Source of the DNA: Longimicrobium sp.
GTDB taxonomy: Bacteria > Gemmatimonadota > Gemmatimonadetes > Longimicrobiales > Longimicrobiaceae
DNA length: 33,367 bases
Direction: 5' to 3'
NCBI GenBank assembly: GCA_036387335.1
Contig: DASVTZ010000118.1
Coordinates: 1 to 33,367 of the forward strand
Part shown: positions 5,541 through 30,263 of the stretch, piece after piece
How positions within the stretch are numbered: the first letter of the stretch is position 1
How the letters are laid out: each line of letters begins with the position of its first letter
Notes under the pieces: model-generated
Database searches by the model: none
What the model saw: the letters and a program-made list of their open reading frames with translations, nothing else
Told to the model about the DNA's origin: nothing
Position numbers and translations under genes: made by a program

Positions 5541-5653
5541 AGTGCGTTAGTGCGTGAGTGCGGAAGTGCGTTGGATTACGGCGCGGCCGCCATCCGCCAG
5601 CACAGCACCGCATGGCTTTTAAACGCACTCACGCACTAACGCACTAACGCACT
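5541..5653. repeat. Inverted pair of octamer arrays (AGTGCGTT)n / (AACGCACT)n
   Basis: Four tandem octamers of AGTGCGTT type at 5541-5572 face four complementary AACGCACT octamers at 5622-5653 across a 49-base spacer, so the transcript can form a long interrupted hairpin. The left array starts six bases after the anti-sigma stop codon. A related four-copy array starts in the same way after the DUF5916 stop at 9361. It could act as a transcript-end structure. Confidence 0.85.
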
Positions 5654-5692
5654 ATCACAACAGCCAGTCATCCTCACAGAACCATACATCCC

Positions 5693-18031: not shown

Positions 18032-18427
18032 CTATGCCCAGGGCCGCAGCGAGCGCGCGATCAGCCCGATGCCGCCCATCAGCAGCCCGAGCATCATCAG
18101 GGTGCTGAAGAGGGAGGTGGGCTGGAAGTAGACGTCCAGGTTCATCAGGATGCCGGCGAAGATGATGGCGACTCCCGCCACCGACAGGAGCCACCCCAGC
18201 GGGTTGCGCCCGTTGAAGAAGAGGAGCGCGACCCCCGCCATGAACGGGATCAGCGACATCCCGAACCCGCTCACCCCCCACAGGCGCCATCCCCCCGTCG
18301 TCACCACCACGCGGCTGGTGACGAGGTAGGCCCCGGCCGAGGCCATCGCCACACCCAGCAGGAAGGCGCCCACACCGCCCTCGGTGCCGCCCGCACCCCG
18401 GCCGCTCCCGGTGACATCTTCGCTCAT
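18032..18427 (-). CDS. Small four-helix membrane protein of unknown function
   Basis: 131 aa. After a Gly-rich N-terminus (~20 aa) four hydrophobic segments are visible: VGAFLLGVAMASAGAYLV, FGMSLIPFMAGVALLFF, GWLLSVAGVAIIFAGILM and FSTLMMLGLLMGGIGLIA. No catalytic motif is seen. AGGAGG lies eight bases before the ATG at 18427, a strong ribosome site. It follows the zinc-ribbon gene by 27 bases and must be cotranscribed with it. The family is not recognised; a membrane partner for the zinc-ribbon protein is an inference from context. Confidence 0.8.
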   Translation of the reverse strand: MSEDVTGSGRGAGGTEGGVGAFLLGVAMASAGAYLVTSRVVVTTGGWRLWGVSGFGMSLIPFMAGVALLFFNGRNPLGWLLSVAGVAIIFAGILMNLDVYFQPTSLFSTLMMLGLLMGGIGLIARSLRPWA

Positions 18428-18454
18428 CTCGACCTCCTGGAAGGGAAAGGGGCG

Positions 18455-19021
18455 CTACGCGGCCGCGCCGCACTGGGAACAGAACCGCGCGGACGCGGCC
18501 AGTACGGCGCCGCACCCCTTGCAGTTGCACGGCAGGTTCAGCGGCGCGCTGCACACGGGACAGAACCGCCCCCCGCTGACCGGCGTCCCGCACGCGCCGC
18601 ACTCCGGCACCTCGACGGCGGGCACCTCGGCCGCGGGCGCGGCGACCCTGGCCTCCGGCGCGACCGCGCACGGGGTGCACATCCGCGCGTCCTCGCTCCA
18701 GCAGGCGGCGCACACGTCGTCCGCGCAGCGCGTGCAGCGGTGGAGGTGACGGCGCGCCTCCCCGGCCGCGCGGGCGAGGGCCTCGTCGTGCCCGCGATCC
18801 CACGCGGGGCCGCGCGTCTCGTGAATCGCCGTGCGCGCCGCACCGAACATCCCGCCCAGCAGATCGTCCGCGGCCCCGAGCGCCCTGTCCAGCGTCAGCA
18901 CCGCGTGCCGCTCGAACTCCGATCTCCATTCCGCGCCGCATCGCGCGCACCGGAACGCGAACTGGAACCCCTGCGCGGTGGAGAAATCTTCGGAGGGCGT
19001 CGGGAGGCGCGGATCGGGCAT
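18455..19021 (-). CDS. Zinc-ribbon protein with several Cys knuckles
   Basis: 188 aa. CxxC pairs occur at CARCGAEW (~24), CTRCADDVCAACW (~95-107), CTPC (~115), CGACGTPVSGGRFCPVCSAP (~142), and CNCKGCGAVL...FCSQCG near the C-terminus. The last two are tandem zinc-ribbon domains of the double-ribbon type; the central block resembles a B-box-like knuckle. A helical stretch at ~40-90 has a Gly-rich segment (GALGAADDLLGGMFGAARTA). No enzymatic motif. It may scaffold or sense at the membrane with the downstream 4-TM protein; this is inferred only from gene order. Upstream and downstream gaps are mirror-image repeats. Confidence 0.8.
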   Translation of the reverse strand: MPDPRLPTPSEDFSTAQGFQFAFRCARCGAEWRSEFERHAVLTLDRALGAADDLLGGMFGAARTAIHETRGPAWDRGHDEALARAAGEARRHLHRCTRCADDVCAACWSEDARMCTPCAVAPEARVAAPAAEVPAVEVPECGACGTPVSGGRFCPVCSAPLNLPCNCKGCGAVLAASARFCSQCGAAA

Positions 19022-20291: not shown

Positions 20292-20429
20292 GGGGAATGG
20301 GGAATGGGGAATGGGGAATGGGGAATGGGGAATCGAACGATCCGCCGACGCCCCAACCCGGCGAATGCACCCGGCACCCCGCCCGGCGCGGATCCACCCA
20401 TTCCCCATTCCCCCTATTCCCCATTCCCC
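20292..20429. repeat. Inverted GGGGAAT / ATTCCCC heptamer arrays without a gene inside
   Basis: Six exact GGGGAAT units at 20292-20333 face four ATTCCCC units at 20400-20429 (one with an extra CT) across 66 bases that hold no gene. The right array touches the polA stop codon (20429-20431). The same pair of arrays, same orientation, brackets the S23-type gene at 29271-29636. Confidence 0.9.
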
Positions 20430-23832: not shown

Positions 23833-23905
23833 AGTGCTAAGTCCTAAGTGCTAAGTCCTTTCCAGCACTTAGCACTTAGCACTTAGCACTTGGCACTTGG
23901 CACTT
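23833..23905. repeat. Inverted (AGTGCTA)n / (CACTTAG)n heptamer arrays between convergent genes
   Basis: AGTGCTAAGTCCTAAGTGCT is followed, after a short TTTCC turn, by repeated AGCACTT units (three CTTAG and two CTTGG variants). The arms are complementary, forming a long stem in either transcript. It fills most of the gap between two convergent stop codons (23770 and 23911), suiting a bidirectional transcript end. Confidence 0.85.
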
Positions 23906-28412: not shown

Positions 28413-28889
28413 ATGAACGACGTGATCGAGACCGCGGACGCCCTCCACGCGAGCGCCAACCGCCTCTACTGGCACAGCCGCGACTCCGTGGACGCCCTCG
28501 CCGCGCGGCTGGGGATGAGCCGCCACTCCTTCTACCAGTCGATCCGCCCGGAGCCCGCGGGCCGCGCCTGCGCAGCGTGCGGAGGCGAGCTGGAGTTCGC
28601 CAACCGCACCGCCCGCCAGACCTCGCGCGCGCGCTGCGCCGGCTGCGGCGCCACCGAGCGCGTGGCCCCGCCCGCCGTCCAATCGGTGGTGGTCGAGGAC
28701 GTGCTCCCCGCGCCGCCTCCGCCGCCTCCGAGCGCGCGCCCCAGCTTCCGCGGTTGGAACCTGTCCCGCTGGCGCCGCGAGCTGGCCGCCGTCCCCCGCG
28801 AGCGCGCCGCGATGGTGGGCGGCGCCGCGGCGCTGGGCGTGGCGGCCGGTGTGCTCGCCCTGGAGCTCCTCAACCCCTCGCGCTGGTGA
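28413..28889 (+). CDS. HTH / zinc-ribbon / single-TM protein
   Basis: 158 aa, GGGAG before the ATG at 28413. Residues ~10-48 look like a helix-turn-helix (DALAARLGMSRHSFYQSIRP). A zinc ribbon follows: CAACGGELEFANRT...RCAGCGATE, two CxxC pairs. A Pro-rich linker (APPPPPPSARP) leads to a terminal hydrophobic segment (AAMVGGAAALGVAAGVLALE). This order suggests a membrane-tethered DNA-binding protein, but no family was recognised. The stop overlaps the next gene by one base (TGATG), so the two are coupled. Confidence 0.78.
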   Translation: MNDVIETADALHASANRLYWHSRDSVDALAARLGMSRHSFYQSIRPEPAGRACAACGGELEFANRTARQTSRARCAGCGATERVAPPAVQSVVVEDVLPAPPPPPPSARPSFRGWNLSRWRRELAAVPRERAAMVGGAAALGVAAGVLALELLNPSRW

Positions 28890-29209
28890 TGCCGGTCGAC
28901 GCATCGCGCACGGATGCGCTGCGGAAGATGGCCGCCGCGCACCCCCAGGACCCGCGCCCCCGGTTCGGCCTGGCTCTGGAGTTCGAGCGCGCCGGCGACT
29001 GGGAGTCCGCCGCCGCCGAGCTCCGCGCCTACCTGAACCTCGCGGACGACGAGGGGAACGCCTTCGGCCGCCTGGGCCACGCCCTGCGCCAGCTCGGCCG
29101 CGACGACGAGGCCCGCGAAGCCTACCGCCAGGGCATCGCCGCCGCCGAGCGCCACGGACACCCCACGATGGCGATGGAGTTCGAGGAAGTGCTGGAGGAG
29201 ATGGGGTAG
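28889..29209 (+). CDS. Small TPR-repeat protein
   Basis: 106 aa, about three TPR units: DPRPRFGLALEFERAGDWES, AAAELRAYLNLADDEGNAFG, RLGHALRQLGRDDEAREAYR. TPR proteins mediate protein contacts; this one likely partners the upstream membrane-anchored HTH protein because the genes overlap. No signal peptide. The heptamer array begins three bases after its stop. Confidence 0.85.
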   Translation: MPVDASRTDALRKMAAAHPQDPRPRFGLALEFERAGDWESAAAELRAYLNLADDEGNAFGRLGHALRQLGRDDEAREAYRQGIAAAERHGHPTMAMEFEEVLEEMG

Positions 29210-29211
29210 TT

Positions 29212-29267
29212 GGGGAATGGGGAATGGGGAATGGGGAATGGGGAATGGGGAATGGGGAATGGAGAAT
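29212..29267. repeat. GGGGAAT heptamer array (seven exact units plus one variant)
   Basis: Seven exact GGGGAAT units then GGAGAAT. It ends four bases before the stop codon of the S23-type gene. Its inverted partner is at 29653-29687. Confidence 0.95.
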
Positions 29268-29270
29268 GGG

Positions 29271-29636
29271 CTAAGGGGCGAGGAGGCGTGCGCGCAGAGA
29301 GCGTAGCATCTTGCTGATGCGCGTCAGCAGGGCCAGCTCTGCGACGACCCGTTCCTCGGTGACATAGCCGAGCCGGATCGCGATCAGGAGAAAGGTCTCG
29401 ATCTCGGCGAGTGAGCCCTTTGCAACGGCGAGGAAGGCGGCGTAGTCCTTTCGAGTAGACCGCGAGTTGCCTTCCGCGATGTTTGCCGGAACAGACACGG
29501 CGGCTCGCCGGATCTGCGAGGTCAGGCCGAACCGCTCATCGGAGGGAAACGTCGCGGATACGCGGTAGATATCCACCACGAGATCCATCCCCAGCCGCCA
29601 GACATCCAGATCCCGGTGCGACGACACGCGGTTCAT
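29271..29636 (-). CDS. Four-helix bundle protein (S23 / rRNA intervening-sequence protein family)
   Basis: 121 aa. Family motifs: HRDLDVWRLGMDLVVDIYRV, FPSDERFGLTSQIRRAAVSV, PANIAEGNSRSTRKDYAAFL, AKGSLAEIETFLLIAIRLGY. This is the IVP/S23 fold, related to the Avd accessory protein of diversity-generating retroelements. GGAGGAG before the ATG at 29636 decides the start; an in-frame ATG at 29675 inside the upstream heptamer array would add MGNGEWGIDSGGE. Lower GC and less biased codons than its neighbours suggest transfer. The function of stand-alone members is unknown; no 23S rRNA or reverse transcriptase is near. It fills, with its arrays, the whole gap between two convergent genes. Confidence 0.93.
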   Translation of the reverse strand: MNRVSSHRDLDVWRLGMDLVVDIYRVSATFPSDERFGLTSQIRRAAVSVPANIAEGNSRSTRKDYAAFLAVAKGSLAEIETFLLIAIRLGYVTEERVVAELALLTRISKMLRSLRARLLAP

Positions 29637-29652
29637 CTCTCCTCCACTGTCG

Positions 29653-29687
29653 ATTCCCCATTCCCCATTCCCCATTCCCCATTCCCC
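29653..29687. repeat. ATTCCCC heptamer array (five exact units)
   Basis: Five exact ATTCCCC units, the reverse complement of the array at 29212-29267. It begins 17 bases upstream of the S23-type ATG and ends six bases from the shikimate-kinase stop. Confidence 0.95.
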
Positions 29688-29693
29688 CGCTGT

Positions 29694-30263
29694 TCACACC
29701 CCAGCCCCGCACCCCGCCCGCGTCCTCACCATCTGCTCGATCTCGAACGCGATCGACTCTACGGAGCGGGTGTCGGCGGGAATGGAGACGTCGGCCAGGC
29801 GGTAGAGGGGCTCGCGCTCTTCCATCATCTGCGCGATGATGGGGGCGGGGTCGTCCAGGTCGCGAAAGGGGCGGGGGATGGAGTCCTCGCGCAGGCGGCG
29901 GATGGTTTCGTCCACTGATACGCGCAGCCACACTCGCAGCGTCTCGGCGCCCAGGAGGCCCAGGAGCTCGGGGCGCGTGATCCAGCCGCCGCCGGGCGAC
30001 ATCACCAGGCGCCCCGCCGAAGCCGCCTCCCGGGTCAGCGCCGCCTCCCGCTCGCGGAAGCCTTCCTCGCCCACGTCGGCGATCAGCTCCTTGACGGTTC
30101 GCCCCTCGCGCTGTTCTATCTCCACGTCGAAGTCCAGGAAGCTCCACTCCAGCCGGCGCGCCAGCGCGGCGCCCACCGTGCTCTTCCCCGACGTCATGTA
30201 GCCCAGCAGCACCACGCGGTGCACGCCCGGAAAAGGGGGGATGTCGGACTCGCGTCTTCCCAT
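29694..30263 (-). CDS. aroK: Shikimate kinase
   Basis: 189 aa. It phosphorylates shikimate with ATP in aromatic amino-acid synthesis. Walker A is LLGYMTSGKSTVGAALARRL (~20-39); FLDFDVEIEQREGRTVKELI carries the DxD-E shikimate contacts; GEEGFREREAAL holds the substrate Arg; SPGGGWI is the Gly-rich Walker B-side motif; and RREDSIPRPF-type lid residues follow (LREDSIPRPF). GGAGG before ATG 30263 supports the start; the open frame extends far upstream only as antisense to gyrA. No other shikimate-pathway gene adjoins. Divergent from gyrA. Confidence 0.92.
   Translation of the reverse strand: MGRRESDIPPFPGVHRVVLLGYMTSGKSTVGAALARRLEWSFLDFDVEIEQREGRTVKELIADVGEEGFREREAALTREAASAGRLVMSPGGGWITRPELLGLLGAETLRVWLRVSVDETIRRLREDSIPRPFRDLDDPAPIIAQMMEEREPLYRLADVSIPADTRSVESIAFEIEQMVRTRAGCGAGV

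Follow-up and report, generated by a model that had tools for sequence, protein, structure and literature searches.

S23 genes lie between inverted short-tandem-repeat arrays in many phyla: a candidate mobile unit resembling rRNA intervening sequences

An S23 gene between inverted heptamer arrays

The window, i.e., the whole 33,367-nucleotide stretch of Longimicrobium DNA analysed here, contains a gap at positions 29210-29693 between two convergent host genes, encoding a TPR protein (28889-29209, plus strand; identified by profile match) and the shikimate kinase AroK (29694-30263, minus strand). This gap is filled by a GGGGAAT array, an S23 gene, and an inverted GGGGAAT array. The left arm (29212-29267, plus strand) begins 2 bases past the TPR stop codon, TAG (29207-29209), and comprises eight tandem units, seven perfect GGGGAAT copies (29212-29260) being followed by one GGAGAAT (29261-29267). 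The right arm (29653-29687, minus strand) consists of five GGGGAAT units, read as ATTCCCC on the plus strand, and its end lies 6 bases short of the stop codon of aroK (29694-29696). The 21-mer GGGGAATGGGGAATGGGGAAT occurs 12 times in the window and was absent from shuffled sequences. When folded as RNA, the two arrays pair into a stem of approximately 35 bp whose loop contains the gene (-242.7 kcal/mol, z -8.6).

The S23 (23S_rRNA_IVP) gene (29271-29636, minus strand; 121 aa) is the sole gene between the arms, where the profile search revealed no transposase gene. Its product scored above the curated cut-offs of both PF05635 and TIGR02436 (128.5 bits against 33.8 and 118.7 against 24, respectively; E 1.5e-37). 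PF05635 was the only domain matched, with neither an HUH Y1 transposase domain nor any recognised catalytic domain. The AlphaFold model (pLDDT 96) is a four-helix bundle, whose closest PDB structure is 2gsc (XCC0516 of Xanthomonas campestris; TMq 0.90), followed by 2rld and then by Avd of the Bordetella phage diversity-generating retroelement (DGR; 4dwl), with a match also in the DGR complex 8ube. The Avd profile itself matched only weakly, far under its cut-off. Rfam yielded zero matches across the whole window, and the unit is not inside an rRNA gene. The window gene had no match as an anti-phage defence protein in PADLOC, and a phage search for S23 was likewise without a match.

The sequence-only reading had proposed this array-gene-array layout, an S23-type gene within it, and an in-frame ATG extending the protein into the repeat. 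The layout held to the base (eight and five units, inverted, 2 and 6 bases from the stop codons), as did the assignment to the S23 type. The ATG inside the array exists, but a start there is doubtful. Translation probably begins at the ATG at 29636, with GGAGGAG immediately upstream as part of a ribosome-binding site (GGAGGAGAG; 29637-29645, minus strand) conserved in the orthologue of a related genome (G006). The array-encoded extension of that orthologue is not alike, and an N-terminal extension into the array was judged unlikely.

The fold raises the possibility that S23 assists, in the manner of Avd, a reverse transcriptase that spreads the hairpins through RNA, a reading favoured by the match to Avd in DGR complexes (4dwl, 8ube) and by the weak hit of the Avd model. 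We consider this very unlikely. RVT_1 was undetected in many S23-bearing genomes (G001, G004, G007, G012, G016, and most of family f2), some of which are incomplete drafts, and was present in many genomes of family f3 lacking S23. The window genome (G000) gave one weak RVT_1 hit, located on contig C105 and not on the window's contig. A reverse transcriptase partner was rejected, as RVT_1 occurrence does not track S23; as far as the drafts tell, S23 units probably do not need the enzyme.

Inverted arrays around S23 genes in other genomes

All three S23 genes of the window genome lie between inverted arrays, the arm words of the other two being AGTGCCT (contig C211) and AGTGCGTT (contig C87). 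The arrangement was quantified with a flank score, obtained by comparing the upstream flank with the reverse complement of the downstream flank, flanks taken from other loci serving as controls. Within the window's order, inverted-array flanks were found at p<0.05 (above the 95th percentile) for 44 of 51 S23 genes, whose mean score was 26.3 versus 9.4 for mismatched pairs (99th percentile 23.8). Beyond the order, 17 genomes of other phyla were analysed, including Gammaproteobacteria, Campylobacterota, Acidobacteriota, Planctomycetota, Bacteroidota, Bipolaricaulota, several CPR lineages, and others. There, 52 of 59 S23 genes passed a score that few controls met (0.9% when mismatched, 1.8% when shifted). 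Inverted arrays were also recorded at 17 of 19 cross-phylum S23 loci, a set overlapping with the 59 genes, and clear ones around 10 of 11 S23 copies on named plasmids (ten cyanobacterial, one from Gemmatirosa).

Array units around S23 genes span 6-10 bp, mostly 6-9 bp, and their word varies by locus (e.g., GGGAGTA, AGGAGTC, AAGTTTG, ATTGGTG, TAGTTAG, and CGGTTATC). In many phyla, S23 genes are ordinarily found inside an array-S23-array unit, and the window locus is one case of this general rule rather than a lone oddity. The upstream arm was purine-rich at 39 loci versus 12 (p=2e-4), with a mixed pattern in family f2; relatedness was not corrected for, and this bias is no more than a hint.

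At one locus (L092; G033:C124:11000-13314), two S23 genes lie approximately 760 bp apart with near-identical upstream arms, resembling a tandem duplication of the whole unit.

Presence and absence of the whole unit

The unit is present at some orthologous sites and missing as a whole from the same sites in relatives. On conjugative plasmids of Trichormus variabilis and Scytonema it lies between two genes, whereas the site is empty in Nostoc linckia, N. carneum, Microchaete, and Aulosira. The flanks of filled and empty plasmids are approximately 98% identical, and the empty site, AAAAAGTAATTAACAAATA, is array-free. The filled site consists of AAAAAGTAAT, the unit, and GTAATTAACAAATA, with a 5-bp duplication of GTAAT, the junction reading ...AAAAAGTAAT[unit]GTAATTAAC.... 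At the same plasmid spot, Nostoc C052 carries what appears by eye to be a decayed S23 remnant.

In the window's genus, the unit separates pdhA from pdhB in six species (G000, G001, G003, G005, G006, and G008). The site is empty in G004, G002, and G009, where pdhB begins 1-3 bases past the pdhA stop; PDH-beta of G004 is 99% identical. Relative to G004, a CTGAA duplication brackets the G005 unit, and G008 repeats the 13 bp GAGGAATCGCTGA. Filled and empty states were also paired at cas10-cmr3 (Picosynechococcus PCC 7003 and PCC 7002, respectively), at nrdB-nrdA (Nostoc edaphicum and Calothrix), and at a tra site (Nostoc C052 and C057), where Nostoc ATCC 53789 has inverted arrays without S23. Six species carry the unit at another site, next to a deoxyhypusine-synthase-like gene, where G000 and G002 have none. 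Comparison of cas6-cas4 between Anabaena 90 and Dolichospermum gives a less clean pair, since the intergenic regions differ throughout. The window's own site holds S23 in G000 and G006; G005 and G008 have S23-less inverted arrays of the CACAGAG and AGTGCGA type; no relative with a clean, array-free empty site was found there.

These comparisons show that the unit is gained or lost whole, most clearly where it is inserted at a site free of arrays with 5 bp of the target duplicated, although no movement was observed directly. Duplications of 5 bp were resolved at two filled/empty sites only. A general target duplication was not supported in the whole locus set, in which direct repeats outside the arms were not commoner than in mismatched controls.

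Some plasmid copies occupy particular surroundings. On plasmids 1 and 2 of Calothrix brevissima NIES-22 (L335, L336), one and the same S23 unit comes after a phage-integrase gene, within a 3.6-kb block common to both plasmids at 97.5% identity. Other S23 units lie inside type I-D and III-B cas operons of cyanobacterial plasmids (L337 and L345, cas6-S23-cas4; L340, cas10-S23-cmr3).

Array words and S23 clades

Of 61 genomes, only five (G000, G004, G006, G007, and G009) are rich in GGGAAT arrays, at 43-89 hits per strand, and the first four of these are exactly the genomes with GGGAAT-armed S23 genes. The agreement extends to variants of the word: in G007, dispersed arrays and S23 arms are both AGGGAAT. 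TATCGGY arrays are all TATCGGC in G010 and all TATCGGT in G011, with a few in G017, and the S23 arms of G010 and G011 match their own dispersed word to the letter. In a tree of 29 S23 domains, the 15 AGTSC-armed proteins group into a single clade (support 100/99), while GGG-armed and TATCGGY-armed proteins fall outside it in two groups with weaker support. Although both kinds of array coexist in the same genomes, clade I S23 genes never occur in AGTGC arrays, which are the more numerous, and clade II genes never in GGGAAT arrays. This lack of exchange has a chance probability of about 1 in 126 (independent sites 4 versus 5), uncorrected for descent.

The correspondence has exceptions. No matching S23 was found for the AGTGC arrays of G002 and G018 or the GGGAAT arrays of G009, in drafts that break at arrays, and G010 has AGTGC inverted pairs but no AGTGC-armed S23. 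A strict rule confining arrays to genomes with S23 was rejected, being broken by G002, G018, and G009, and by a single inverted GGGGAAT pair, its arms 516 bp apart, in G013, a genome lacking S23. Within the window's family, comparison shows that the S23 clade predicts the array word, and that S23-less arrays of this word are usually scattered through the genome, the link being imperfect.

The two arms of a unit resemble each other (identity 0.93-0.96 within a locus) more than either resembles the same arm at the same site in other species (0.61-0.78). Arms were chosen by best local alignment, which inflates the within-locus value. At one site, however, both arms changed word at once, from AGTGCGT to AGTCCTA, which the choice of arms cannot explain. 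The comparison thus shows that the two arms of a unit evolve together while orthologous arms diverge.

The association of arrays with S23 might instead reflect a regulatory hairpin, in which the arrays act as terminators, insulators, or RNase III sites that shield the neighbours from S23 expression or regulate S23, structure rather than mobility being selected. The strong RNA fold, the presence of S23-less pairs between convergent genes, and the cleavage of an S23-bearing stem by RNase III in Coxiella (PMC4990558) speak for it. Selection on pairing in the sense RNA would nonetheless be expected to leave an excess of G-U pairs on the sense strand, and none was found (40 versus 59 of the opposite kind). 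Selection at the RNA level through G-U wobble was rejected on this ground; copying or recognition at the DNA level is the likelier inference. The regulatory account also leaves unexplained the presence or absence of whole units and the genome-wide copies of the word, and we regard it as unlikely.

Arrays and inverted pairs without S23

Arrays far outnumber S23 genes: the window genome has approximately 80 hits per strand to GGGGAAT-type 21-mers versus three S23 genes. Sampled S23-bearing genomes of the family contained 31 inverted pairs in 717 kb, several of them overlapping and three lying around S23 genes. None were found in 285 kb from genomes of the family without S23 or in 320 kb from the S23-free family f3. 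Against a link with S23, 80 kb from S23-bearing genomes of family f2 contained none either. These densities rest on sampled 20-kb stretches and are confounded by phylogeny, as relatedness was not controlled. Within the window, an S23-less inverted GGGGAAT pair with a gap of approximately 63 bp (20292-20429, strand unassigned) is a candidate non-autonomous relative of the unit.

Further arrays were noted in passing. Two other S23-less inverted short-array hairpins of the window use different words (5541-5654, AGTGCGTT/AACGCACT; 23833-23905, AGTCCTA/AGCACTT). A second class of inverted arrays, with the words ACGCGGAG, CACAGAGG, and CGCGGAGGT (L226, L165, L233, L236, L240), is common in the genus and was not seen around any S23 gene. 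Elsewhere, inverted pairs spaced by 300-420 bp enclose other intergenic repeats and no S23 (L161 at 18393-18898, L245, L247, L037). Contigs of the window genome end inside GGGGAAT arrays (L040, end of C26; L041, end of C39; L001, start of C24); since assemblies break at arrays, counts of S23 units in drafts may be too low.

The excess of S23-less arrays leaves room for a landing-pad explanation, whereby inverted arrays multiply by some unrelated route (slippage, recombination, or a RAYT-type Y1/HUH transposase) and S23 inserts preferentially into them. Besides that excess, it is favoured by the other intergenic repeats found between inverted arrays (L161, L037, L245) and by array-bearing genomes without detected S23 (G002, G018). 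It is opposed by the several empty sites that are fully array-free, implying that arrays and gene arrived, or left, together, and by the fidelity of each S23 clade to its own words despite the coexistence of both. It remains possible.

The sequence-only reading had further inferred that the unit is mobile, had proposed testing whether tandem heptamers flank S23 genes in relatives, and had held that arrays spreading independently of S23 would refute it. Mobility is supported, close relatives lacking the whole unit at several orthologous sites. Inverted short arrays were found almost everywhere around S23 genes, but their unit is not always GGGGAAT, so the specificity for that heptamer had to be amended to a locus- and clade-specific word. 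The refutation is half met, because arrays outnumber S23 genes in the window genome and those of G005 and G008 at the window's site are S23-less: S23 needs arrays, whereas arrays do not need S23. A copy-number cassette, also suggested, was not shown. As for the unit being undescribed, the open-access literature searched yielded no report of a connection between S23 genes and short tandem arrays, most subscription journals not being covered.

Proposed mechanism

On balance, and with moderate confidence, we favour the interpretation of the unit as a small selfish element akin to rRNA intervening sequences (IVSs), with S23 in the loop of a hairpin, an organisation like that of a REPtron, and S23 as the cognate helper; the role of S23 and the enzyme involved are inferred. 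Under this model, the S23 protein would recognise, in DNA or RNA form, the hairpin built of its own word and direct its copying or insertion through a recruited host enzyme. The catalytic step is unidentified, and Y1/HUH transposases were not surveyed. S23 may also act in trans on S23-less arrays and pairs, by analogy to the presumed action of TnpA-REP (RAYT) on REPs and REPINs, and rRNA IVSs would be elements of this type lodged in 23S rRNA helices.

A bolder version would regard S23 proteins as word-specific mobilisers of short-tandem-repeat hairpins, which would make up a widespread class of bacterial mobile element operating with neither a transposase nor a reverse transcriptase. The word of 6-10 bp that forms the terminal arrays would co-evolve with the protein, S23-less STRR-like arrays would be seeded by it, and rRNA IVSs would represent a special case. 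The evidence falls slightly short of making this version the probable one.

Comparison with known systems

The favoured model ties S23/IVP proteins and intergenic heptamer arrays together in one element and groups rRNA IVSs with far more numerous elements located outside rRNA. The data suggest, by inference, that array spread may need S23 as a helper. The S23 units within cas operons may also explain the listing of 23S_rRNA_IVP among CRISPR-associated domains (PMC10910872).

G-rich heptamer arrays of the same kind as those in the window have been described as GGGAATC in Xanthomonas and GGGGA(C/T)T in Nostoc, with 70-75 inverted pairs per Xanthomonas genome (PMC4692102). That study reported no general association with mobile elements and did not mention S23, and the role of the arrays is unresolved (PMC4692102). 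Even so, it is XCC0516 of X. campestris that the window protein matches best in structure, and S23-in-array genes abound on Nostoc plasmids. Avd of diversity-generating retroelements is alike in fold, but the window S23 has no linked reverse transcriptase and falls far below the cut-off of the Avd model. Unlike an insertion sequence with terminal inverted repeats, the window unit has no transposase gene.

The REPtron combines TnpA-REP (RAYT) with REPs, BIMEs, and REPINs (PMC8266576; PMC3116915). It shares with the S23 unit a gene bordered by inverted short repeats, many gene-less inverted pairs dispersed in intergenic regions, and a cognate relation between gene and repeat. Membership fails, since S23 is a four-helix bundle without an HUH domain or catalytic tyrosine. 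Moreover, S23 arms are tandem 7-mers instead of single GTAG-tagged palindromes, and the unit is polymorphic in presence and absence, whereas mobility of TnpA-REP is not evident (PMC8266576).

The IVS of Coxiella burnetii is 428 nt long, carries S23 in the loop of a 28-bp stem, is cut by RNase III, and has been termed a selfish element, the role of such elements being unresolved (PMC4990558). The likeness extends to the same protein family, an element of approximately 430-480 bp, and an S23 open reading frame in the loop of a stem of approximately 28-35 bp formed by terminal inverted repeats. IVS membership fails in turn, as the window unit lies between the TPR gene and aroK and not in rRNA; its stems, in addition, are short tandem arrays of a word that differs between clades and recurs across the genome. 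By parts and size, then, the nearest relative of the unit is the Coxiella IVS, and by organisation it is the REPtron (PMC8266576).
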